A stretch of DNA of 64,000 bases from Chlorobiota bacterium (GTDB lineage: Bacteria; Bacteroidota; Bacteroidia; Bacteroidales; VadinHA17): positions 1 through 64,000 of the forward strand of contig JAADHC010000026.1 of assembly GCA_013152085.1 (NCBI GenBank). The letters are read 5' to 3'. Below, piece by piece: positions 46,018 through 59,646 of this stretch. The first letter of the stretch is position 1; the number at the start of each line of letters is the position of its first letter. Both the position numbers and the translations under genes were made by a program. The notes under the pieces are model-generated. The model was not told where the DNA came from. It made no database searches and saw only the letters and a list, made by a program, of their open reading frames with translations.

Positions 46018-46097
46018 AGCTATTTTACGGTTTTCTATTTAATAACAATGGCTAAAATAAGTCAAAAATAAGATATCGAACATCCAAAGCGTAATTC

Positions 46098-46403
46098 TTA
46101 TGCCACCATTGTAAGATCGTTAGAAGTGTAACGAACCATTGCTGCCAGTGTTCGTCCAAATGGATCCGTGACGAGGGAGAATCCCTGGTCTGCCTGGCGT
46201 ATGATAGTGATCCCGTTTTCGATAGTAAGAAAAGCCGACATCAGACCATGAATGGAGTCAATATCCTGCCTGGCGATTTCTTTACCGTGTTCAATCAGGG
46301 CCAATTCATCTTCCTCTCCTCATATACCTGCGCCTTCCGGCCAAAGAATGATGTGTGCTCCCGCCTCCGCTTCCCTGATGGTCTGTTTAAAATAGTCATC
46401 ATA
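46098..46403 (-). pseudogene. Decayed carbon-nitrogen hydrolase (nitrilase/Lnt-like) gene
   Basis: Reading the minus strand from 46403 gives YDDYFKQTIREAEAG, then HIILWPEGAGI with the catalytic-Glu motif of nitrilase-superfamily proteins. It meets an in-frame TGA at 46320-46322 and continues in the same frame (ELALIEHGKEIARQ). Then comes a jump to IHGLMSAFLTIENG and DQGFSLVTDPFGRTLAAM, the C-terminal region of the family. The Lys and Cys of the catalytic triad are missing. Both a nonsense mutation and an internal deletion are evident. Its 5' end overlaps the stop of the propeller-SpoIIE gene by a few bases. Confidence 0.75.
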
Positions 46404-49400
46404 CTTTAAACCCCAATACAACTATATCATCTATTTGTTCATGTTTACCCCGCCATGCAGAAATCGTTTTATAGAGTATCTCTTTTTGTATTAGCATCTT
46501 CTCATCCTGAATATCAATTAATAGTTGTTTAAATCTTTTATTTATAAACTTTTTACCATCCGGACCGCCAAACTGGTCAACATAACCATCGGAAAACAAA
46601 TATAAAGAGTCACCCGGTTGAATGGGAATATCATGTTTGGTAAAATTATCCATTATCACGTGAATGGCAACCGGCATACGGTTTCCGGTGGTTTGTGCCA
46701 GTGCTTTATTCCTAACCAGATATAGAGGATTATTTGCTCCTGCAAAAGTCAGTTGATTCAATTTCTTATCATAAGTACAAATTGCAATATCCATTCCGTC
46801 TTTTGATCCGGCATCCATATCTTTTTGCTTAAGAGCCTTAATAACTTTGTCCCTTAACGTATTCAATATTTTTTCGGGAGACGTAATATTATCTTTTTCA
46901 ACGATTTCATTTAAGAAAGAAATACCAAGCATACTCATGAAGGCACCGGGAACACCATGCCCGGTACAATCAGCAGCTACAATAACAACCGAACCGTTTT
47001 TTTCTTTCACCCAGTAAAAATCCCCGCTAACGATGTCTTTTGGCAGGTAAAGCACAAATGAATCTTTCAGATTATCCTTAAGTACCTGTAAAGATGGCAA
47101 GAGTGCATTCTGAATACGTTTAGCATACCTTATACTGTCCGTGATATCAATATTTTTCCTTTCAATAATTTCTTTCTGTTTCTCAATTTCGGTTTTTTGC
47201 TTTTGGATTTCTGCCGTTCGTTCCTGTACTTTTTGTTCAAGAATATGTTTTTCACGAATAAGTTGCTTCTCACGATATTTGATATAGAAAATAATACCAA
47301 AGATCACTAAAACAACCATCAAAGAAATAAACCACCATGTTTGATAGAATGGAGGCTTTATAATAAAGTTAAATGTTAGAGGTTCCTTATTCAATATCTG
47401 GTTGTCGTTTTCAGAGATGACCATAAATGTATAATTTCCCGGTCTGATCCCGGAATAGGTTTGTTCTGATAATCGCCTGGACGGAGACCAGCTTTTATCT
47501 ACCGGATCAAGCTTATATTTATAATTAACATTTTCCGGATCGCTGAGGGATATTCCTGTCCATTTAAAAGTCAGGTGGTTTTCACTATGAGGCAGGCAAA
47601 GCGACCTGGGTAACAATGTCCAGGGATATAAGCTGTCGGCATAATCGGCCCAGTTCACCTTGTTAAACTGCAGATTCAGTTCGGTTAAATGAAGGACAGG
47701 TGGTCTGGTATTTATTTTTTCCAGTTCAGGTTTATAACAGGTAATTCCATTAACGGTGCCAAACCAAATATGACCTTTTTTATCTTTGTATATGGCATTC
47801 AGATCATTTTCCATGCCAATAAACCCATTTGACTTGTAATAATTTTTTGTGCTTATGATTTTACCGTTGTGATTCAAAACAAGTTTGTCAAATCCCATAT
47901 TGGTTCCGACAAGAAGCGTGCTGTCGTTCTGGAAAATAAGGGAAACTATATTGGTGGATCTGAGCAAACTATCCCCTGCAACCCGTTTAATGGGTAGTTT
48001 CTTATGCGAACCTGTTTCGTATTTATATAACCCGCCGCCATTCGTTCCAATCCAGATATTTCCATAACAGTCTTCGGCAAGTGCATAAATTTGCCTGAAA
48101 TCCAGTCCTTCCTGCTCGTCAAAGGTAATCATGGTATTATCCTTAAACTCAACTAAGCCATCCAGCGTGCCGGCCCAGATATTCCCTTTTTTATCTTCGA
48201 TAATCGTCTGAACTTCATTGTTGGGAAGTTCCCAGTTTTCTTCGTTAATAGTAAAAACCCCTTTCTCATTTAGCAGGCTTATTCCCCCGCGTGTACCGAT
48301 CCAGATTTGATTTCTGGAGTCAACCATGATGCAGTTTGTATGATTATCAACAAGATGATCTTTCTCAGATATGTTAATGAATTCTTTACCAGTAAACTTT
48401 GATATACCATGTTCGTTGGTTGCCATCCAGATATTATGATCACCATCAATACATATTGAATTTATATAGTTATCTGGTAAGCCATCTTCAGTAGTAAATG
48501 ATTTGAAATAGGGCTTATCGTTAATAAAAGTTAATTTAATTAATCCGCCTCCGTGTGAAGCCAGCCAGTAATTCCCTTCTGTATCCTGATCAATACCATA
48601 GATCTGACAGTTTGTAAGTCCCTGTTCTTCTTTATAATGAGAAAAATGTTCACCCATCAGTTTACAGATACCATTGCTGAATGTTCCGGCCCATATATTT
48701 TTCTCGCTATCCTGTAAAAGACATAAAACCTGTTTATCAGGGAAACCCTGTTCGATAGAATAATTCCTGAATTGACCCTGATCAAATTTTACCATTCCTG
48801 CTTTATCCGTACCAAACCAAAGACTTCCGTAGTAGTCTGAGATAATGTCCCAGACAGTATTATCAGGGAATCCGTTATTTTTATTATAAGTTTTAATTGT
48901 CCCTAAACTTGTTTTTGTATTATCTTCGATTTCAAAAACTCCTTCATCAAAAGTACCAAACCAGAGATTTCCTTCTTTATCTTCTGCAACGGATAAAATA
49001 AAATCACTCGGGATGACTCCACGGCTTAATTTATCCACTTGAAGTCCTGTACTATCAAATGATAATATATTTAAGCCTCCTCCATATAACGCCAGCCATA
49101 ACCGGTTATATTTGTCTTCTTGGATATCAAATATTAAGTGATAACTGAGGCCATCTATGTAAGAAAAAGTATTTATTTGAACGGAATCGTAATTATTTAC
49201 AAATTCAATCTTATTTAACCCTTCGTCTGTTCCTGCCCAGATCCTGTTTTGCTTGTCCTCATATATTTTCAGGACCTGAGTGCCCAACAATCCCTTGTCT
49301 TTATTGATAGTATGAAAAACGTATCCATCATAGAAACTGATTCCATTATCTGTCCCAAACCACAAATTTCCTTTGCTATCCTCCATAATAGTTCGTACGG

Positions 49401-49641
49401 TATTATCTGCCAGGCCATTTTTACTATTAAAATTAGTAAAATGATAACCGTTAAACCGGCTTACACCTCCCCCCTGAGTGCCGAGCCATAAATAACCTCT
49501 TGAATCCTGGATCATGGTCAATACGGTAGAAACAGGCAACCCCTCTTCAATCGAATACTTTTTGAAATTATTAATCTGTGAAAAAATTCCTGGGACAGAA
49601 ATTGTTAGACAAATGGTTAAGATTAATAATATGCGTTTCAC
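46399..49641 (-). CDS. Two-component-type beta-propeller sensor with SpoIIE phosphatase output
   Basis: 1,080 residues. Signal peptide, then about a dozen propeller repeats of the form NxVxxIxEDxxGNLWFGT (about 25-660), a Y_Y_Y immunoglobulin-like domain (about 687-745), one membrane helix (about 768-790), a cytosolic coiled coil (about 795-850) and a SpoIIE phosphatase domain with SGDFYW (Asp874), ADCTGHGVPGAFMS, SDGYVDQFGG and IDDIVVLG. It resembles hybrid two-component sensors, but the kinase is replaced by a phosphatase. It senses a periplasmic ligand and dephosphorylates an unknown cytosolic protein. Last gene of the probable four-gene minus-strand operon, 59 bases after the caspase-like gene. 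Confidence 0.92.
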   Translation of the reverse strand: MKRILLILTICLTISVPGIFSQINNFKKYSIEEGLPVSTVLTMIQDSRGYLWLGTQGGGVSRFNGYHFTNFNSKNGLADNTVRTIMEDSKGNLWFGTDNGISFYDGYVFHTINKDKGLLGTQVLKIYEDKQNRIWAGTDEGLNKIEFVNNYDSVQINTFSYIDGLSYHLIFDIQEDKYNRLWLALYGGGLNILSFDSTGLQVDKLSRGVIPSDFILSVAEDKEGNLWFGTFDEGVFEIEDNTKTSLGTIKTYNKNNGFPDNTVWDIISDYYGSLWFGTDKAGMVKFDQGQFRNYSIEQGFPDKQVLCLLQDSEKNIWAGTFSNGICKLMGEHFSHYKEEQGLTNCQIYGIDQDTEGNYWLASHGGGLIKLTFINDKPYFKSFTTEDGLPDNYINSICIDGDHNIWMATNEHGISKFTGKEFINISEKDHLVDNHTNCIMVDSRNQIWIGTRGGISLLNEKGVFTINEENWELPNNEVQTIIEDKKGNIWAGTLDGLVEFKDNTMITFDEQEGLDFRQIYALAEDCYGNIWIGTNGGGLYKYETGSHKKLPIKRVAGDSLLRSTNIVSLIFQNDSTLLVGTNMGFDKLVLNHNGKIISTKNYYKSNGFIGMENDLNAIYKDKKGHIWFGTVNGITCYKPELEKINTRPPVLHLTELNLQFNKVNWADYADSLYPWTLLPRSLCLPHSENHLTFKWTGISLSDPENVNYKYKLDPVDKSWSPSRRLSEQTYSGIRPGNYTFMVISENDNQILNKEPLTFNFIIKPPFYQTWWFISLMVVLVIFGIIFYIKYREKQLIREKHILEQKVQERTAEIQKQKTEIEKQKEIIERKNIDITDSIRYAKRIQNALLPSLQVLKDNLKDSFVLYLPKDIVSGDFYWVKEKNGSVVIVAADCTGHGVPGAFMSMLGISFLNEIVEKDNITSPEKILNTLRDKVIKALKQKDMDAGSKDGMDIAICTYDKKLNQLTFAGANNPLYLVRNKALAQTTGNRMPVAIHVIMDNFTKHDIPIQPGDSLYLFSDGYVDQFGGPDGKKFINKRFKQLLIDIQDEKMLIQKEILYKTISAWRGKHEQIDDIVVLGFKV

Positions 49642-49700
49642 TTTGACGGAATTTAGAGGAAATATAAAGAAAGATTCAATATTCCTTTCAATCTGCCAGC

Positions 49701-51038
49701 CTAGAAATCTTTTTTAATAAATAAAAATTGTCCACCTTCGTCACCGGTATTTTTTATCGGTTGAAAAACGGGCATTTGCAAGGAATTATTGACAACAGGA
49801 ATGCGCAGATCGTTATATAATGAGAAAGCATCATAAAATCTTTTATTGTTGTTTCTCAGGCTTTTAAGGAAATAATAAGTGAAGACCGAGTGCCCATCTC
49901 TGCCGCCATCCATCACAGGTTCAACACCCCCTGAAGTTATAGCCTGGCGTGAAAGCTTCTTATTTACATCCCGGTAATATCTTTCCGTATCTTCAAAAGG
50001 AATGGAAAGGGTTTTACCCCTGAAGATATCCCCGCTGAAACAGGCATCTGCAACGAGGAGTGTATGCTTGGATTTTATGGATGAGAGAAAGGTTTGCAGG
50101 TCATTGTTTGAAACGTATTGATAGGTTGATTCCTCGGTAGCATCTACCGGGACCCAGTAACCTTTATTATATTCTTTCTTAAACTCTCCATGTCCGGAAT
50201 AATATATCAATACATTGTCATTTTCTTTGACAGTCCGGGCTAACCACTCCAGTTGTCTGATGATTTCTTCACGGGTTGCCACCCTGTTGTAAAGCGTCCG
50301 GATATAATCGAATTTATATTGCGTTTTTAATATTTCTTCAATTGCTTTTGCATCCCGTACGGCATTCTGCAGAGGAGGCCAGACCCCGGAGTAATCATCA
50401 ATACCGATGATCAGGGCAAAATAGTCGCCAATGACCATTTCTGACCTGTCTTTCGAAACATTAAGGCCTTTCAACGGATCGCCAACGCCTCTGTAAGTTG
50501 TTCTCGGAGCAACATTTTCCTCTTGCCTTTTCCCTTCAATGACAATAACTTCCGGAGTAACTTCCTGTGTTTCAATTTTCATCTCAACAGGCCGGGCACC
50601 AAACCCGTTTTTTTCCAAAATTTCAATATTAAAAAGAACCGAACCATTCTGTATTTCTCTGGAAGCAACAATAGGGATGATAATTGCTTTTGATTCTTTG
50701 GGTTTAACATCCCCCACAATAATGTTTTTTTCAAATGACAGTCCTTTGATCTCCGGGTTTGCCAATGATATTTTAACCTGTACATTATTTGCTGTGCCTT
50801 CTCCGGAATTAATAATTTTGAATGTAATTTCACTGGTCTCAAGCGCGTCAATAATCTGATTATTATTCTTGTCAGAGAATGCCTGTTCTGTGATCTTAAG
50901 ATCGGGCAATAATTTTTTTGTTTGCTGCTGTTCCACAGAAAGCTTTTTCACCTTGCTCTTACCCGTAATCACATTTTCCTGACCGTATGCGCACCCTGCC
51001 AGAAAAATAAGCAGAAGGATCAATATTTTTGTTTTCAT
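49701..51038 (-). CDS. Secreted caspase-like (C14) protease with CARDB-type domain
   Basis: 445 residues with a signal peptide (CAYGQE). Residues 45-165 form a CARDB-like immunoglobulin domain (LPDLKITEQAFSD to VEMKIET). The caspase fold (about 205-440) carries the His/Cys dyad: His283 in YYSGHGE and Cys333 in VADACFSG. Caspase-like proteins of bacteria cut after basic or acidic residues and some take part in regulated death or surface processing. The signal peptide places this one outside the cytoplasm. It lies between the DUF5683-like and propeller-SpoIIE genes. Confidence 0.9.
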   Translation of the reverse strand: MKTKILILLLIFLAGCAYGQENVITGKSKVKKLSVEQQQTKKLLPDLKITEQAFSDKNNNQIIDALETSEITFKIINSGEGTANNVQVKISLANPEIKGLSFEKNIIVGDVKPKESKAIIIPIVASREIQNGSVLFNIEILEKNGFGARPVEMKIETQEVTPEVIVIEGKRQEENVAPRTTYRGVGDPLKGLNVSKDRSEMVIGDYFALIIGIDDYSGVWPPLQNAVRDAKAIEEILKTQYKFDYIRTLYNRVATREEIIRQLEWLARTVKENDNVLIYYSGHGEFKKEYNKGYWVPVDATEESTYQYVSNNDLQTFLSSIKSKHTLLVADACFSGDIFRGKTLSIPFEDTERYYRDVNKKLSRQAITSGGVEPVMDGGRDGHSVFTYYFLKSLRNNNKRFYDAFSLYNDLRIPVVNNSLQMPVFQPIKNTGDEGGQFLFIKKDF

Positions 51039-51074
51039 GGCTTAAGTTTTTTGTTTCTGTTGAAATGCTGTTTT

Positions 51075-51866
51075 CTAAAATGTTATTCTTAAAGTCATCA
51101 GAGGGTTTTTACTAACCGGATCGATATAATATCCTATTTGGGGTACGATTGCGTTTTGCCTATAAGCAAAATTTTGTGTTTTGTTTCCTTTTATCAACAG
51201 AATGGTAATATCTGTTACCCATAATGCTGCGGCACCGGCTATTAAAATAGTGGATAGTTGATTTTGTGTCCGGGCATCATGGAATAGCTGGTTTCTTTTG
51301 CTAATATCCAGAGATGTCTTATAATCTTTAATACTTTGGAAACTTTGCCTGTTGTATATGACTGAACCGGCTACACAACCATAACTGGCAAATCCAAACA
51401 ACCAGTAAGGACCTCCTGAAATACTTGCGTTCCCCCAACCCGGAAATACCAGGGATTTAACCAAAGCTCCACCCAGACTCTTCTTTTTGAGAGGTTTAGG
51501 TTTCTCCGCTACAAGGTGTGATTTGGCATATACCTTAACATAGATCCCTTCTGTCAGTTTAATTTTATCATTTCTGAAATCCCATATAACTGTTTTATTT
51601 TTCCCCGCGGTTATATTCTTCCCGACATCTCCAGCCGTTGATCTGGCATCCAGCTTTTTTCCTGATTCAGTGAATATTTCTATGGTCACATCAAATTTTT
51701 CTCCCGGTGCATAATTATCTATATCATAAGTAATCACAATATTATTACCGACCAGATTAAAATCGATATTTGAGATTCTTGCCTTTGTCTGACCTGATCC
51801 ATTCACAGAGTTCAAACAAAAGTAAAATACAATCAAATAAAAAGTTAATAATGGTCTTTTATTCAT
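51075..51866 (-). CDS. DUF5683-like membrane-associated protein
   Basis: 263 residues with a signal peptide, an N-terminal beta domain (about 30-125, ISNIDFNLVGNNIVITYDI) and a C-terminal part with hydrophobic helices. The latter includes SLVFPGWGNASISGGPYW, the pattern of Bacteroidota DUF5683 proteins (PG.GQ...), and ILIAGAAALWVTDI. No function known. It is 36 bases upstream of the caspase-like gene in the same operon. Confidence 0.7.
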   Translation of the reverse strand: MNKRPLLTFYLIVFYFCLNSVNGSGQTKARISNIDFNLVGNNIVITYDIDNYAPGEKFDVTIEIFTESGKKLDARSTAGDVGKNITAGKNKTVIWDFRNDKIKLTEGIYVKVYAKSHLVAEKPKPLKKKSLGGALVKSLVFPGWGNASISGGPYWLFGFASYGCVAGSVIYNRQSFQSIKDYKTSLDISKRNQLFHDARTQNQLSTILIAGAAALWVTDITILLIKGNKTQNFAYRQNAIVPQIGYYIDPVSKNPLMTLRITF

Positions 51867-51952
51867 AAGTTTTATAATTCATTTTCAATTTTTTTAATTA
51901 TATTGATTATTTTTCCCTCCGTTCTGATGTATTTCAGCTCATTTTATCCATT

Positions 51953-53545
51953 TTATTGAACAGGCAAATATTCCCAAAAATCATCCAGGTATATGTCATT
52001 ACTGCCGTCATTGAAAGTCCCGGTGCCAACATATCCTTTATTATTAATTGTAAAACCAGCAGATGCAGAACGGGGATGACCCGGAAAATCCGACATTTGT
52101 TTCCAGTTACCAGTTCCGGGATCAAATTGCCAGAGTTCATTATTAAAGACATAAGCCTTATTGCGAATAGTAAAGCTGACTATTTCTGTACCGGGAGGTC
52201 CGGGATAATCTGTCTTTTGAGACCATGCACCCATTGGATTACCGTTAGTATCCGTGCCGTTATCAGTTGAAAACGGGTCATATTGCCAGAAGTCATTTAA
52301 ATAAACATCATTATAACCACTGCAAACATAACCGTAAGTTGCTATAGAAAATCCTGCTCCCGATAATCTGCTCGTACCCTGGAAATCAACTTTTTGTGTC
52401 CAGCTTCCCATTGGATATCCATTTATATCGGTGCCATTTATCATATCCTGTGGATCAAATTCCCAGAAATCATTTGAATAAACATTCTGCACTCCATCCC
52501 AGTAAACCCCGCTACCAACATATCCTCTGTTGCCTATGCTAAATGCGAACATATTCCATCTGCCAAGTCCCGGAAAGGGTGTTTTGGATACCCATACCCC
52601 CTGAGCAGGATCAAATTCAAATAAATTACTTTCGTCAATAATATATGCTTTATTACCTATTGTAAAAGAGGTGCCATTTACCGGTGAATTTCCGGAAGAT
52701 AAAAGAACCCAGTTTTCCGGATCAGGACTAAACTGATAAAAATCATTTACAGGCCCTGCATCTTGGCCGCCGGCAATATACCCAAAACCTCCCAGCGAAA
52801 AAGACAGAGCCCGGTACCTTGTGCTGCCCGCAAAATTTCCAATCCGGGTCCAAACATTCTCAATTTTGAAACTCCTGACATTTCCAAATTTAGTTTCACT
52901 GCCATTTTGTGCATAAGCTACAAAATAATAATTGGTATACGGGACAAGTTCAGTTAATGAATAACTGAAGGTAGTTGCTTTTGTAATCGTGCCCAAAGAT
53001 ATTTTGTTTTGGCTGAAATTCTGAGGATTGGGATCATCCGCCCAGTAAAATCCATGGTCGGTAACACTTTCAAATCCCAGGTCATTAATTACACCTTGCA
53101 ATACTACCGAGGAATTACTCTGAATAGAGGCTGTCTGTGTTGAAACAGCCAGGTCGGGAGTTGAAAAATTACGGCTTTCGCCATAGATTGTTTCTTTCCC
53201 GGTGGTAACATAAGCCCTGAAATAAAATGTAAGTCCGCCGCTGATATCTGATGAATTGTATGAAAATGGTCCTGTGTTCGAAGCAGAACCCAAACTAAAC
53301 TGGATACCGTTACTAACAGAAACCTCCGGAGTGTTTGAAACAACAAAACCATGATCGGTAATTCCCTCCCCCAGATCAATAATAGTACCTGTAAGAGTAA
53401 TTGTACCGTTTCCTATACTATATGAATTTGTCAGAACAAGAGCTGCCCTTGTAAGATCTATTTTCTGGCATGAATTAACAAATAACAGAATAAATAAGCT
53501 GTAAAAAATATTATGAACTCTAAAATATTGTTTTCTGCTGTTCAT
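51953..53545 (-). CDS. Kelch-repeat lipoprotein with fibronectin-like domains
   Basis: 530 residues; lipobox FVNSC with Cys26. Two fibronectin-III-like repeats (about 35-130 and 130-225) with the recurring ITDHGF and SVTDHGF motifs precede a Kelch-type propeller (about 230-525) whose blades carry WxxxxFPG and NDFWxYDP. It is probably a surface or periplasmic binding protein. First gene of the minus-strand cluster; the DUF5683-like gene begins 86 bases later. Confidence 0.85.
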   Translation of the reverse strand: MNSRKQYFRVHNIFYSLFILLFVNSCQKIDLTRAALVLTNSYSIGNGTITLTGTIIDLGEGITDHGFVVSNTPEVSVSNGIQFSLGSASNTGPFSYNSSDISGGLTFYFRAYVTTGKETIYGESRNFSTPDLAVSTQTASIQSNSSVVLQGVINDLGFESVTDHGFYWADDPNPQNFSQNKISLGTITKATTFSYSLTELVPYTNYYFVAYAQNGSETKFGNVRSFKIENVWTRIGNFAGSTRYRALSFSLGGFGYIAGGQDAGPVNDFYQFSPDPENWVLLSSGNSPVNGTSFTIGNKAYIIDESNLFEFDPAQGVWVSKTPFPGLGRWNMFAFSIGNRGYVGSGVYWDGVQNVYSNDFWEFDPQDMINGTDINGYPMGSWTQKVDFQGTSRLSGAGFSIATYGYVCSGYNDVYLNDFWQYDPFSTDNGTDTNGNPMGAWSQKTDYPGPPGTEIVSFTIRNKAYVFNNELWQFDPGTGNWKQMSDFPGHPRSASAGFTINNKGYVGTGTFNDGSNDIYLDDFWEYLPVQ

Positions 53546-54078
53546 TATTTTGATACATTGTTAATCAAAAACAAATACTTTACAAACTTTCACCGGATCG
53601 TGAACAAAAACACAAATTACTTCATCAAACTAAAATACACAAATCTTTGAGAATCACCTATAAAATTACAAAAAAATCTTTTAATTCGAATTCCGCGACA
53701 ATATGCTTTTCTTGATTCTATATAAGTAATTCAGTAACTTTCCTGTTATTATTTAACTTGTCGTCCCCCGACTTCAGTAGGGGTACGACTAAATATTGAA
53801 TGACTGATACCAAACCATTTTCATCTAATGGTTGAAGCAAAACATGTTATATTTATGATAAACCTGTTAAGCATGGACTGGAAAAAAGTCAGATAAGTGG
53901 AGGTTTTCATTATTCCCGGAATATAAAGGATTGACAGATAATTTCTTTATTTACCCGGAGCCCGAACTGTAGCCGGACTCCGAGGAGATTGAACCTACCA
54001 TCTTTGAATATATCTTTGATTTTTATTATCTTACAAGATTATTTCAATATGTGCTCTCTTACAATTAATAATTACCGG
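53546..54078. other. Divergent intergenic region with hairpin and promoter
   Basis: 533 bases between the Kelch lipoprotein (minus) and the LRR protein (plus). It holds a 10-bp stem with one mismatch, GTCGTcCCCC/GGGGtACGAC (53760-53789, 10-base loop). It also holds a second GC-rich patch (53955-53985) and the LRR promoter. I saw no gene. The hairpin is not next to any stop, so it is more likely regulatory or a mobile-element trace than a terminator. Confidence 0.5.
53989..54018 (+). promoter_or_regulatory. Promoter of the giant LRR gene
   Basis: TTG at 53989-53991 (-33) and TATCTTTG at 54011-54018 (-7) with a 19-base spacer fit the Bacteroidota consensus. The TTG is the same one that could be read as a start codon for the long frame, so translation should begin later, at the ATG at 54079 that opens a signal peptide. 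Confidence 0.6.
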
Positions 54079-57000
54079 ATGAAAAAGATTGTTTTGATCA
54101 TATTCGGAATACTGTTAGTTTCCATTCAAATTCAGGCACAGTTTACCCTTACCGACAGTCTTAAAGCTTACTTCCCCTTCAACAACAACGCCAATGATGA
54201 AAGCGGGAACGGGCATAACGGAACAGTAAATGGAGGAGCGACACTGACCACAGACCGGTTTGGGAATACAAATAGTGCATATAGTTTTGATGGGGTGGAT
54301 GATGATATTACAATGCTCAATCTAGATCTATTGCAACCGGCATCTATTTCTATTTGGATTAATTCTGATAATAGCCAAAATGGCCCGGTATATGTTAGTG
54401 ATTATAGTGATTCATATTGGGCCAATTATTATGGATTGGTTGTATCATTTAAAATAAATGGGAAAATTTCGGCCAGTTTTGGTAACGGCAGCTATCCAAA
54501 CCATGGATTCACAACTCTTGATTCAATAACTACAACCAATATATGGCATCATATTGTAGTTAATTGGGATACATCGGGTAGTATTTCAATTTATCTGGAT
54601 GCTTTGCAGATGGCGTTATCTGAATCAGGAAATACAAATCTTAAAATAGCAAGTAACCAGGGAGAAGATGATTGTTTCGGACGTGACGATTACCAGTCGG
54701 GAGGGAATCATTACTATAAGGGTTTACTTGATGACATACGTATATACAACCGTATCCTTACTGATAATGAAATAGACTCTCTTGCCCACGAGGGAGGATG
54801 GGTATTTGAAGACCTCATCCCGCCGTCTGCTCCAGCCGGCCTTACGGCCTCTTCCGGGGATCAGCAGATCACTCTAATCTGGGATCAGAATACCGAACCC
54901 GATGTGGACCAATACAATATTTACCGTGATTTATCCTCTCCGGCTGTTACACTTATTGATAGTGTTCATTCACCTTCCCCGCCGGATACGTTTTACATTG
55001 ATACAACTCCTGTCATTGGCCGGGATTACTATTACCGTATTACAGCCAAAGATACTGCCGGGAATGAAAGCGGTTTTTCCAATGAAGTAAGTGTTGCCAT
55101 ACCGTTCGATCTTTACACCGATTCCCTGGCCCTGGTAGCCCTGTATGACAGTACCGGCGGCGCAAACTGGACCAACAATACCAACTGGCTTACCGGGCCT
55201 GTTTCAACATGGTTTGGTATAACGGTTTCCGGTGGCCGGGTTACTGAAATACTTTTAGATTCCAATAATATTGTTGGTACTATTCCCCCTGAGATCGGTA
55301 ATTTAGCAAACTTACAAATTTTGAAACTTGATCACAATCAGTTCTCTGGAACAATTCCACCGGAAATAGGGAATTTATCTAATCTGACTGAGCTGACTCT
55401 ATGGGCCAATAAATTCACAGGAATAATTCCTTCAGAGATTGGCAATTTAACTTCTTTAACCATTTTAGACCTTGACGATAATCTATTATCAGGAGAAATA
55501 CCTTCTGAAATAGGAAACCTGATCAATTTAGAAGAGTTCTGGTCGTGTAAAAATCAACTTACAGGTTCGATTCCTTCTTCGATAGGAAACTTAACCAATT
55601 TAACGGTTTTATCTGTTTGGGAAAATCAGTTAACAGGGATAATGCCACCAGGAATAGGAAATTTAATTAATCTGAAAAATTTATCTCTGTCGGATAATCA
55701 TTTGACAGGGGGAATACCATCTGAAGTTGGAAATTTATCAGAACTTGATTATCTGGGATTGACAAACAATCAATTAACGAATTCTATTCCAATTGAAATA
55801 GGCAATTTAGATAGTTTAAAAACACTGGCTTTAGGTGGAAATCAACTTTCAGGATCTATACCACCCGAACTTCAAAACTTAAATAAATTAACAAAATTAT
55901 ATCTGTGGGGAAATCAATTAACAGGCTCAATTCCTCCTGAAATAGGAAATTTAGTAAATTTAATAAACCTTCAGCTTTCATCAAATCTATTAACCGGAAC
56001 AATACCTCCTGAATTTGGAAATTTGGTAAATCTGGAGGTTTTATATCTGTGGGGTAACCAGTTAACAGGAGCAATTCCAACAGAAATAGGTAATTTATCT
56101 GGTCTGATAAATTTATCCCTGTTGGATAATCAACTTTCAGGCTCAATTCCTTCTGAAATTGGCAATCTGACAAGTTTGGAAACGTTATTTTTGAATAATA
56201 ATCAATTTACAGATTTGCCTGATCTTTCTTTTCTTACTACCCTGAATGATTTGCATGTGGAAAATAACAAGCTTATGTTCAGTGATATTGAACCCAATTT
56301 AGGAGTAGCAAGCAACACCTTTACCTATGCCCCTCAGGACAGTGTAGGTGAACGTATTGATACAACTATTTTAGTAGGAACAAGTTTTACCTTGTCTGTA
56401 TCAACCGGCGGGGCCAGCAGTGTGTACCAATGGAAAAAAAACGGAACAAATATCGGAACGCTGTCCGGTGACAGTACATATACGCTCAATCCTGTTGCTT
56501 TTTCCGATTCGGGGGTTTATACCTGTGTGATCGCCAACACGGTGGCTACCGATCTGACCCTCTACAGCCGTCCCGTATATCTTACGGTGGTGTCCTCTTA
56601 TTTGCAGCAGGATTCCCTCGCCCTGGTCGCCCTCTATGACTCCACGGATGGCGGTCACTGGACCAATAATGCCAACTGGCTTACCGGGCCTGTTTCAACA
56701 TGGTATGGGATCACGGTTTCCGGGAACCGGGTTACTGAAATAAGTTTTGATCACAATAACCTCATTGGAACGATTCCGCCATCCATTGGCGATTTGGATA
56801 GCTTACGGGTATTGAATCTTCCTGATAATCAACTATCGGGGACTATTCCCTCAGAAATTGGAAACCTGGGCCGTTTACAGCATATAGATTTAAATATGAA
56901 TCAACTTTCCGGATCGATACCGGCAGAAATGGGTAATTTATCAAATCTGAATTTTATTAATCTTTCCATGAATCAACTGACCGGTTCCATCCCTGTTTCG

Positions 57001-59646
57001 ATAGGAAATTTATCAGGTTTAATTAATTTACAACTTAATAATAATTTTTTATCGGGTTCAATTCCTGCTGAATTGGGAAACCTGATTAATTTACAGACCC
57101 TATGGCTGCAAATCAATCAATTATCCGGAACCATTCCTGTAGAAACCTGGAATTTGAGTAGTTTAGTAAATTTACAACTGTTTCACAATCAGCTTTCGGG
57201 AATGATACCTCCTGAGATTGGAAATCTGAGCAACCTGGTGTTTCTAAATCTTCAGGAAAATCAATTTACCGGGCTGGCTGATCTTTCACTTCTTGGTTCA
57301 TTAGATGAATTAACAATAGAATACAATAAGTTGACATTTAAGGATATTGAGCCAAATATTGGTGTTGCAGGTACTACATTCACCTATACTCCTCAGGATA
57401 GTGTTGGGGTAATCATTGATACAACAGTTTATGCAGAAACAAGTTATACAATGTCTGTTTCAACGGGGGGGACCAGCAGCCGGTACCAGTGGAAAAAAGA
57501 CGGGACAAATATCGGAACTGTTTCCGGTGACAGTACATATACTATCAATCCTGTTGCTTTTTCTGATTCAGGTACTTATACATGCGAAATCACCAATACG
57601 GTTGCCACAGGTCTAACGCTTTACAGCCGCCCGGTAAATTTTTCAGTAGATCATCTGCCGATCTATTATGACTCCCTTGCCCTGGTTGCCCTGTATGACA
57701 GCACCGATGGGGCAAACTGGACAAATAATACCAACTGGCTTACCGGGCCTGTTTCAACATGGTTTGGGGTAACTGTTTCAGGTGGCCGGGTTACTGAAAT
57801 AAGTTTTGATCACAATAATCTGAATGGAACAATTCCCCATGAGATAGGTAATCTAACTGATTTAACTTTATTATCTCTTGAGGAAAATCAACTTGCTGGT
57901 TCTATCCCAACTGAAATAGGAAATCTGACTAATCTATCAGTTTTAAGGCTGTATAACAGTCAAATCTCGGGTTTAATTCCCTCAGAAATAGGTAATCTTA
58001 CGAATTTAACATTCCTGGATTTCAACAGTAATCAACTTACCGGTTCAATTCCGGTTGAAATCGGCAATTTGACAAATCTGGAATTTTTGGATTTTTCCAA
58101 TAATCAATTTTCAGGATCAATTCCGCCTGAAATCGGCAATTTACTGAATCTGGAAACTTTGGTTTTTGACAGAAATCAACTTTCCGGATCCATCCCATCA
58201 ACGATCGGTAACCTGACAAAATTGGTTAGGTTGCATTTTGGTAACAATCAGCTTACGGGTTCTATCCCTGATGAAATTGGCAATTTAACTAATTTGAATT
58301 GGTTGGAACTTGGCAATAATCAACTTACAGGATCAATACCAGTTAACATAGGCAATTTGACTGATTTGACATTAATAGAAATTGCCAACAATCAATTCAC
58401 TGGTTTGCCAAACCTTACATCTCTTGATTCATTAGCTTATTTATTAATAGAAAACAATAGGTTTACATTTGAGGATATTGAACCGAATATTGGTGTGCCT
58501 GATTCTGCATTTATATACTCGCCCCAGGATAGTGTCGGGGAAATAATTGATACAACTGTTTATGTAGGAACAAGTTATACAATGTCTGTTTCAACAGGAG
58601 GTGCCAGCAGCCTATACCAATGGAAAAAAGATGGTGTATCAATTGGCAATATTTCAAGCGATAGTACTTATACTATCATTCCTGTTGCCTTTTCTGATTC
58701 GGGAACTTATACATGCGAAATAACTAACACAGTTGCCACGGACCTTACTCTTTATTCCAGACCTATACATGTTAGAACAACCATTATCTCTACCTTCCCG
58801 TATTCAGAGGATTTCGAAAGTGGCAACGGTGGCTGGTATACAGGAGGCGCAAATACTTCATGGCAATACGGAATTCCCACAGGACCAACAATTAACTCAG
58901 CAGCATCGGGGAATAATGCATGGGTAACCAATCTATCCGGTGAATACAACCCTGATGAAGTTTCTTATATTAAAAGCCCGCGATTTGACTTATCAGGCAT
59001 AAATTATCCAAAGATTGAGTTTAATATATGGTGGGATGCCGAAGGATTCTATGACGGGGCAAACTTACAATATAAGCAGGGTACAGGTGAATGGCAAACG
59101 TTAGGTTCAGACAAGGGAAATGGCACATGGTACAATAGTTCTTATTTGTTTGCCTTTGAGAAAGGATTCGGATTTGATATTAATCATTCTGCAGGATGGT
59201 CTGGAGATAATGTATGGGGCTATGGAAGTAACGGCTGGGTAACGGTATCTCATGATCTTTTGATTATTGACAAACAGACTGATGTCGCCTTTCGTATCGC
59301 CTTTGCTTCCAACGATACTTATCAGAACGATGGGGTTGCGATTGATGACATTCATATCTTCGGTGATCCGACCGGAATCCATGATGTTACAACAAGTTTA
59401 TCAGAAATTCAAATTTATCCAAACCCGAATGAAGGTAAATTCTATTTGGTATATAAGGGGGAAAAAGAGAGTGATTTGAAACTGCAACTGATCAATCTCC
59501 AGGGGCAGGTTCTTTTCGAGAAACAATTTTTTTCTCCAGGGTATCTTAATGAGAAATTGGATCTGTCCTTTCTCTCAAAAGGGATTTATTACCTTAAAAT
59601 AACCGGAAAGTATGGTTTTGAAGTCCGGATATTAATCATACAATAG
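54079..59646 (+). CDS. Giant T9SS surface protein with plant-type LRRs and Ig-like domains
   Basis: 1,855 residues from ATG 54079. Signal peptide (to about 22), LamG/ConA-like domain (about 25-240), fibronectin III (about 247-343), then three modules beginning DSLALVALYDST (residues 348, 845, 1198). Each has a WTNNTNWLTG cap, leucine-rich repeats of the 24-residue plant type (IPxEIGNLxxLxxLxLxxNxLxG) and an Ig-like domain (YQWKKxG...DSGxYTC). I count 13, 7 and 8 repeats. A MAM-like jellyroll (about 1573-1767) and a type IX sorting domain (IQIYPNPNEGKFYL, about 1775-1855) follow. It should be exported and attached to the cell surface, probably for adhesion or recognition. Confidence 0.93.
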   Translation: MKKIVLIIFGILLVSIQIQAQFTLTDSLKAYFPFNNNANDESGNGHNGTVNGGATLTTDRFGNTNSAYSFDGVDDDITMLNLDLLQPASISIWINSDNSQNGPVYVSDYSDSYWANYYGLVVSFKINGKISASFGNGSYPNHGFTTLDSITTTNIWHHIVVNWDTSGSISIYLDALQMALSESGNTNLKIASNQGEDDCFGRDDYQSGGNHYYKGLLDDIRIYNRILTDNEIDSLAHEGGWVFEDLIPPSAPAGLTASSGDQQITLIWDQNTEPDVDQYNIYRDLSSPAVTLIDSVHSPSPPDTFYIDTTPVIGRDYYYRITAKDTAGNESGFSNEVSVAIPFDLYTDSLALVALYDSTGGANWTNNTNWLTGPVSTWFGITVSGGRVTEILLDSNNIVGTIPPEIGNLANLQILKLDHNQFSGTIPPEIGNLSNLTELTLWANKFTGIIPSEIGNLTSLTILDLDDNLLSGEIPSEIGNLINLEEFWSCKNQLTGSIPSSIGNLTNLTVLSVWENQLTGIMPPGIGNLINLKNLSLSDNHLTGGIPSEVGNLSELDYLGLTNNQLTNSIPIEIGNLDSLKTLALGGNQLSGSIPPELQNLNKLTKLYLWGNQLTGSIPPEIGNLVNLINLQLSSNLLTGTIPPEFGNLVNLEVLYLWGNQLTGAIPTEIGNLSGLINLSLLDNQLSGSIPSEIGNLTSLETLFLNNNQFTDLPDLSFLTTLNDLHVENNKLMFSDIEPNLGVASNTFTYAPQDSVGERIDTTILVGTSFTLSVSTGGASSVYQWKKNGTNIGTLSGDSTYTLNPVAFSDSGVYTCVIANTVATDLTLYSRPVYLTVVSSYLQQDSLALVALYDSTDGGHWTNNANWLTGPVSTWYGITVSGNRVTEISFDHNNLIGTIPPSIGDLDSLRVLNLPDNQLSGTIPSEIGNLGRLQHIDLNMNQLSGSIPAEMGNLSNLNFINLSMNQLTGSIPVSIGNLSGLINLQLNNNFLSGSIPAELGNLINLQTLWLQINQLSGTIPVETWNLSSLVNLQLFHNQLSGMIPPEIGNLSNLVFLNLQENQFTGLADLSLLGSLDELTIEYNKLTFKDIEPNIGVAGTTFTYTPQDSVGVIIDTTVYAETSYTMSVSTGGTSSRYQWKKDGTNIGTVSGDSTYTINPVAFSDSGTYTCEITNTVATGLTLYSRPVNFSVDHLPIYYDSLALVALYDSTDGANWTNNTNWLTGPVSTWFGVTVSGGRVTEISFDHNNLNGTIPHEIGNLTDLTLLSLEENQLAGSIPTEIGNLTNLSVLRLYNSQISGLIPSEIGNLTNLTFLDFNSNQLTGSIPVEIGNLTNLEFLDFSNNQFSGSIPPEIGNLLNLETLVFDRNQLSGSIPSTIGNLTKLVRLHFGNNQLTGSIPDEIGNLTNLNWLELGNNQLTGSIPVNIGNLTDLTLIEIANNQFTGLPNLTSLDSLAYLLIENNRFTFEDIEPNIGVPDSAFIYSPQDSVGEIIDTTVYVGTSYTMSVSTGGASSLYQWKKDGVSIGNISSDSTYTIIPVAFSDSGTYTCEITNTVATDLTLYSRPIHVRTTIISTFPYSEDFESGNGGWYTGGANTSWQYGIPTGPTINSAASGNNAWVTNLSGEYNPDEVSYIKSPRFDLSGINYPKIEFNIWWDAEGFYDGANLQYKQGTGEWQTLGSDKGNGTWYNSSYLFAFEKGFGFDINHSAGWSGDNVWGYGSNGWVTVSHDLLIIDKQTDVAFRIAFASNDTYQNDGVAIDDIHIFGDPTGIHDVTTSLSEIQIYPNPNEGKFYLVYKGEKESDLKLQLINLQGQVLFEKQFFSPGYLNEKLDLSFLSKGIYYLKITGKYGFEVRILIIQ
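55181..55213 (+). repeat. 33-bp exact repeat, copy 1 (LRR module 1)
   Basis: Identical 33-base stretch starting CCAACTGGCTTACC and encoding the module cap NWLTGPVSTW. Copies 2 and 3 are at 56672-56704 and 57731-57763. Surrounding DNA is also similar but not identical, so the exact block suggests recent recombination or strong constraint. Confidence 0.85.
56672..56704 (+). repeat. 33-bp exact repeat, copy 2 (LRR module 2)
   Basis: Second copy of the module-cap repeat, 1,491 bases after copy 1. Confidence 0.85.
57731..57763 (+). repeat. 33-bp exact repeat, copy 3 (LRR module 3)
   Basis: Third copy of the module-cap repeat, 1,059 bases after copy 2. Confidence 0.85.

Follow-up and report, generated by a model that had tools for sequence, protein, structure and literature searches.

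Why should an exported caspase be encoded beside a transmembrane phosphatase? The question is raised by four minus-strand genes in a stretch of 64,000 nucleotides from a Chlorobiota bacterium (GenBank assembly GCA_013152085.1, contig JAADHC010000026.1, positions 1 to 64,000; hereafter the window), which encode, in order, a Kelch-type lipoprotein (gene 1), a DUF5683-like protein (DUF5683L, gene 2), a caspase-like protease (gene 3) and a propeller sensor with a PP2C-type phosphatase output (gene 4). An earlier note on this DNA had taken them for an envelope signalling or regulated proteolysis circuit. That interpretation was right about a conserved unit with an envelope sensor and a phosphatase, but the core is the pair of caspase and propeller-phosphatase, which is much older and more widespread than the four genes. 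To our knowledge, little is established about what caspase homologues do in bacteria, and they come up chiefly in connection with cell death or stress.

A caspase and a sensor-phosphatase paired in two clades

Caspases were sampled by profile across the order and the phylum without reference to their neighbours, and about 80 neighbourhoods were read; the caspase–propeller-phosphatase pair was found in about 19 Bacteroidales families. The caspase tree has three main groups. In clade I, the window type (C-terminus GDEGGQF), a SpoIIE gene lies within two same-strand genes in 16 of 28 caspases, and in clade II, whose members (~790 aa) combine tetratricopeptide repeats (TPR) with a C14 domain and end in DENGTFFF, in 27 of 32; the chance expectation, taken from the 15 SpoIIE open reading frames (ORFs) that sequence searches found in the 3.38-Mb genome, is ~1% per caspase. 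Clade III has no SpoIIE gene nearby (0/43), and there DUF5683L stands beside the caspase or is fused to it in 18/43. Since matches to the caspase clade at E<1e-60 turned up in only about ten of the 395 genomes of the phylum sample outside the window's own, the pair is, as sampled, mainly a Bacteroidales trait.

The association is closest in a panel of 60 genomes of relatives, 34 of which carry the clade II sensor. In 31 of these, the caspase gene comes immediately before that of the sensor, in the same orientation; in the other three the caspase lies on another contig (one genome) or is missing (two). The spacing between the end of the C14 domain and the start of the sensor match is 24–305 bp, mostly <120 bp, and no clade II caspase without a sensor was found in the panel. 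The clade II pair sits in a housekeeping neighbourhood conserved over many genera, comprising a ribD-type gene, a recX-like gene, LOG and a dnaE-type gene.

In the phosphatase tree, which was made by a quick method, the caspase-adjacent sensors form two clades, one of 16 rows (with clade I caspases) and one of 24 rows (with clade II), each with an SH-aLRT (Shimodaira–Hasegawa-like approximate likelihood ratio test) support of 99 and each needing one change. Neither clade includes the six propeller-phosphatases of the window genome that lack a neighbouring caspase. On these trees, the receptors split as the caspases do, with one receptor clade to each caspase clade. The pair thus exists in two parallel clades, in each of which a predicted secreted C14 protease lies directly upstream of a sensor of the hybrid two-component system (HTCS) type with a SiaA-type phosphatase, and the window genome holds both versions.

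The second pair of the window genome, a TPR-caspase and a propeller-SpoIIE gene, is found at C1:115192-120782 (L040:5193-10783), between ribD-type and LOG-type genes. Elsewhere, a Fic/Bro-N gene is inserted between caspase and propeller-phosphatase (L109:6497-7378), and in a distant Bacteroidota genome a CHASE2-SpoIIE gene comes after two caspase genes, so that another type of sensor with this class of output lies near caspases (L079:5749-15054).

Are both partners likely to be functional? Gene 3 matches Peptidase_C14 (Pfam, E 1.3e-23) and belongs to the C14 family by its p20 fold and His-Cys dyad; the dyad His283/Cys333 was correctly picked out by the earlier note and is invariant in 27/27 related caspases. 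By profile, the closest solved relatives in the Protein Data Bank (PDB) are metacaspases and MALT1. The predicted secreted protease has an N-terminal signal and no further transmembrane (TM) segment. A lipobox-like 'LAGC' had made the window caspase a candidate lipoprotein; this identity was rejected, as the orthologues carry YSYGQ|E and the lipobox is not conserved, so that a cleaved signal peptide is the more likely nature of the N-terminus than a lipoprotein anchor.

Gene 4 contains 11 Reg_prop stretches (E 2.6e-66), Y_Y_Y and SpoIIE (E 1.2e-21) by Pfam. Besides the signal peptide, its sole other hydrophobic helix is that at residues 769–787, and standard topology would put the propellers beyond the inner membrane and the phosphatase in the cytoplasm, in support of the earlier description as a transmembrane sensor with a PP2C-type phosphatase output. 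The phosphatase motifs SGDFYW, DCTGHGVPGAFMS, DGMD and FSDG are kept in all sensors examined, with single-residue substitutions only, outside the Asp positions. Together with the intact His/Cys dyad, they argue for two working enzymes, as predicted from the conserved residues. In one orthologous locus, the propeller gene is broken into two ORFs near codon 55–60 (L008:11377-14691), either by a sequencing error or as a young pseudogene.

With its metal-binding Asp residues kept, the phosphatase part is of the SiaA type of PP2C and nearest to SiaA (NCBIfam E 8.2e-61, C-terminal part only; PDB 6k4e, E 1.6e-41 by sequence search). Because only this C-terminal part matches, gene 4 is not SiaA itself; it reaches 206 bits against the SiaA equivalog cut-off of 700. 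The ectodomain has the Reg_prop and Y_Y_Y composition of an HTCS ectodomain and matches the solved one, 4a2l, in the PDB search, whereas the histidine kinase, receiver and AraC-type output of an HTCS was not found in gene 4 by Pfam, which gives SpoIIE/PP2C instead.

The pair therefore shares parts with several known systems and differs from each. SiaABC(D) of Pseudomonas aeruginosa (PMC7647112, PMC8457831) has the closest phosphatase domain, and relatives of SiaC and SiaB, with a phosphosite motif rich in Thr/Ser, are encoded in the window genome; however, the propeller/Y_Y_Y ectodomain is unlike that of SiaA, SiaB and SiaC lie outside the operon, and a secreted caspase is co-encoded. The Bacteroides HTCS (PDB 4a2l, 3v9f) share the Reg_prop propellers, the Y_Y_Y ectodomain and a single TM segment, but have neither the PP2C output nor a caspase partner. 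RsbU/RsbV/RsbW resembles the system in its PP2C (SpoIIE-type) phosphatase, and RsbW-like and STAS proteins occur elsewhere in the window genome; here the components are not encoded together, the phosphatase is nearer to SiaA, and the sensor is transmembrane. Orthocaspases or prokaryotic metacaspases (PMC3501461, PMC6426788) have a C14 domain with the same dyad, whereas the gene 3 product is exported and has a phosphatase sensor as its partner. The text of a 2012 survey of 217 metacaspase operons mentions no SpoIIE or phosphatase pairing (PMC3501461). Full-text searches of open-licence papers likewise yielded no account of caspase-SpoIIE operons, in agreement with the earlier statement that this is not a described system, and suggest that a partner-switching phosphatase sensor with a caspase partner has no earlier description.

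The four-gene unit and a second caspase module

The four genes are intact, and the coordinates, strand and gaps of 86, 36 and 59 bp that had been given for them proved exact (Table 1). The start codon of gene 4 is GTG.

Table 1. Features of the operon region in the window
Feature	Coordinates	Strand	Evidence
Gene 1: outer-envelope lipoprotein, FN3-like N-terminal region and Kelch-type beta-propeller, 530 aa	51953..53545	-	Kelch matches, lipobox Cys
Gene 2: DUF5683-like protein, signal peptide, immunoglobulin (Ig)-like beta domain ~28-118, membrane-associated C-terminal part, 263 aa	51075..51866	-	
Gene 3: secreted C14 caspase-family protease, CARDB-like Ig domain then p20-like domain with His283 and Cys333, 445 aa	49701..51038	-	
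Gene 4: signal peptide, two Reg_prop propellers, Y_Y_Y, one TM helix (769-787), coiled coil, SiaA-like PP2C/SpoIIE phosphatase, 1080 aa	46399..49641	-	
Operon leader, candidate promoter	53546..53700	-	Block kept in six orthologues by alignment, DNA further upstream diverging
Giant leucine-rich repeat (LRR)/Ig/laminin-G protein with type IX secretion tail, divergent from operon	53989..59646	+	

It had been left open by the earlier note whether the genes are rarely adjacent in relatives. All four are present in the same order in six orthologous loci (L004–L009; Bacteroidales/Bacteroidota metagenome-assembled genomes, caspase identity 73–81%), and this order is kept while the flanks differ; co-transcription aside, it supports the claim that the four genes are one unit. 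Upstream, the gene for a giant LRR protein of the type IX secretion system (T9SS) adjoins the operon in the window, L004, L007 and L008, other genes do so in L005 and L006, and an endonuclease/uvrB region does so in L009 and in L055, a further locus in which the first three genes are in order and the contig ends just past the caspase. Downstream, nadD-gmk-type genes are found in L004–L007 and unrelated genes in the window and L008; ferredoxin-oxidoreductase or ABC genes are also among the differing flanks. At the same endonuclease/uvrB site, L053 has caspase and phosphatase alone, with no genes 1 and 2. Because the flanks differ and L053 has only the pair, the conserved stretch does not extend past the four genes, and genes 3 and 4 make up the minimal core. 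In another family, a related order of lipoprotein, DUF5683L, caspase and propeller-phosphatase is seen (L092).

The first two genes have a different history. The label of Kelch lipoprotein is sound as far as the lipobox Cys is concerned, which is present in all gene 1 orthologues, while the Kelch-type matches are weak or below the curated cut-off except for single Kelch repeats. In this lipoprotein family the N-terminal part is constant and the C-terminal domain varies (Kelch in the window, Fib_succ_major in L043), a pattern that would suit a variable part for binding or for sensing at the surface. 'DUF5683-like' is an apt description of gene 2, which is not a member of DUF5683 (PF18935) by the Pfam rule (E 0.059, 13.8 bits against a gathering threshold of 26.7); the weak sequence match is the likeness, and the sub-threshold score and an Ig-like N-terminal domain linked or fused to caspases are the difference.

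The DUF5683L N-terminal domain is fused to C14 in single ORFs at seven loci (L131, L134, L135, L139, L140, L142 and L144), and DUF5683L has a caspase as its neighbour both in clade III and at the distant loci of clade I; such fusion and adjacency suggest a physical link between the two. The gene 1 N-terminal family, with Fib_succ_major or other C-termini, is found beside other DUF5683L–caspase pairs as well. Judged from these neighbourhoods, the Kelch lipoprotein and the DUF5683-like protein derive from a second, overlapping caspase module, DUF5683L–caspase–lipoprotein.

Candidate targets, proposed mechanism and rival explanations

In P. aeruginosa, SiaA dephosphorylates SiaC at Thr68, opposing the kinase SiaB (PMC7647112), after which SiaC acts on a partner (PMC8457831). 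SiaB and SiaC do not share an operon with gene 4, as they would with SiaA in SiaABC, and both families lie elsewhere in the window genome, with six SiaC-family and two SiaB-family genes; one SiaC–SiaB pair is adjacent (C6:132739-133561), and the SiaB-like protein scores above the curated cut-off for its family. NTSS/NSSS phosphosite motifs are present in the SiaC-like proteins. STAS or anti-sigma partners, which the earlier note had thought worth looking for elsewhere in the genome, are also present, as three stand-alone STAS proteins (DSSGLS) and one RsbW-like kinase. The SiaC-type proteins appear to be the likeliest candidate targets of the phosphatase, ahead of a classical RsbV-type STAS protein. 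Obvious substrates are few in the window genome beside its 15 SpoIIE ORFs.

We give roughly even odds (about 0.5) to the reading that the four genes are a functional unit with the caspase–sensor-phosphatase pair as its core, working by caspase-gated partner switching from the envelope to the cytoplasm. The caspase, the DUF5683-like protein and the Kelch protein would form a periplasmic or outer-membrane assembly that senses an envelope or surface cue, and binding or proteolysis by the caspase (directed at the sensor ectodomain, at a partner within the assembly or at a ligand) would switch the phosphatase, the signal passing through the Y_Y_Y–TM–coiled-coil connection. The phosphatase may then dephosphorylate SiaC-family (or STAS) proteins phosphorylated by SiaB/RsbW-type kinases, and their partner binding in the cytoplasm would change. 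The coupling of protease to phosphatase, the physical interaction, the identity of the substrate and the cue are what we infer from sequence; a surface or secretion-related cue is plausible, and the divergent giant LRR protein is a possible, optional ligand or target. Somewhat short of an even bet is the broader proposal of a new class of transmembrane signalling, in which an exported caspase and a dedicated propeller-phosphatase receptor would have co-evolved to turn envelope proteolysis into SiaC/STAS dephosphorylation, in two versions per cell.

Several observations weigh against caspase-gated switching. No phosphatase is adjacent to the caspase in 5/32 members of clade II and in several of clade I, and the clade II sensor occurs without caspase in G029 and G003 (truncated), so that the sensor can exist alone. 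At distant clade I loci a T9SS-secreted protein is encoded next after the caspase, with a recognizable propeller in 2/3 and a phosphatase in 0/3 (in L075, the one scanned, CHASE2 and papain-like proteins precede the caspase), and the caspase may have another primary job. Since most of the 15 SpoIIE ORFs have no caspase, SiaC or STAS targets cannot be assigned to the phosphatase of gene 4 specifically. Structure prediction (AlphaFold, 7-row alignments) was of little help: the caspase model, with a mean pLDDT (predicted local distance difference test) of 44, was too poor and was discarded, and in gene 2 the beta domain was modelled at pLDDT ~80 and the remainder unreliably; the generic Ig-like domain of this model, which was also left unused, had no significant Foldseek match.

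The main rival draws on the same distant loci. It holds that the caspase mainly matures, trims or anchors surface or T9SS-secreted proteins (the Kelch lipoprotein, the LRR giant or secreted propellers), and that the sensor only reports on this or adjusts expression, with no activation by cleavage. The T9SS-tailed proteins and papain-like protease of distant clade I would fit, as would clade III caspases, which stand beside DUF5683L and lipoproteins and never beside a phosphatase, and the T9SS LRR neighbour in the window. A pure processing enzyme, however, would not need a tight and specific sensor-phosphatase pairing in two clades with agreement of the trees, and the T9SS neighbour is missing from several type A loci; we regard this explanation as unlikely. 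Clearly less probable is a nutrient or glycan sensor, in which gene 4 alone would sense a sugar like a Bacteroides HTCS and the caspase would be a structural or auxiliary binding protein. The match of the ectodomain to BT HTCS sensor structures and the many Reg_prop-SpoIIE paralogues without caspase are in its favour, yet the His/Cys dyad is never lost in the 27 caspases, which is unexpected for a purely structural role, and no glycan-use genes were noticed directly flanking the unit.

C14 proteases also occur in bacterial conflict systems, and the PADLOC 'caspase' model matches here, so programmed cell death or anti-phage defence, with the caspase as a death effector released on sensing damage or infection, had to be considered. 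The match is to the generic caspase domain only, other hits are marginal and unrelated with no set of defence components, the caspase is exported, and no toxin or pore-former was found. The housekeeping context of the clade II pair over many genera, together with the reliance on a generic match alone, led us to reject a defence system, and death or defence is highly improbable. Chance adjacency or passive hitch-hiking of unrelated genes could draw on that part of the conservation which lies within one family and may be inherited synteny; it is contradicted by the persistence of the pair over so many families with changed flanks, by the short panel spacing and by the independent agreement of the trees, and its likelihood is negligible.

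If caspase-gated partner switching is true, it would supply a missing input for the many Bacteroidota SpoIIE/SiaC/SiaB proteins, and bacteria would offer an example of a caspase at work within a signalling complex, as paracaspases are in animals. The tie between a caspase clade and a sensor-phosphatase clade across Bacteroidales families already offers a concrete, testable role outside death, in envelope signal transduction.

Surroundings of the operon and other caspase loci

A promoter and terminator scan placed all coding-strand terminator-like sites within genes and none in the three internal gaps. Promoter-like sites are frequent in the AT-rich DNA of the window and are uninformative, and the window shows no enrichment of TAnnTTTG, the Bacteroidetes -7 consensus. 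The region 3′ of gene 4 (46022-46396) has no intact ORF, contains stops and resembles a decayed gene end; its longest reading has no Pfam match. A soluble, stand-alone SpoIIE phosphatase of 274 aa is encoded at 845-1669 of the window.

Caspase genes are also found in other settings. In the window genome, a C14 caspase with a C-terminal Fib_succ_major domain is divergent from HATPase and STAS-type genes (L042:5821-8043, contig C39), a further caspase in the company of partner-switching-like genes, and a WD40-caspase protein adjoins a voltage-gated-type ion channel gene (L041:4998-8111, contig C55). One Bacteroidota genome carries a tandem array of at least seven caspase genes (L076 and L083).

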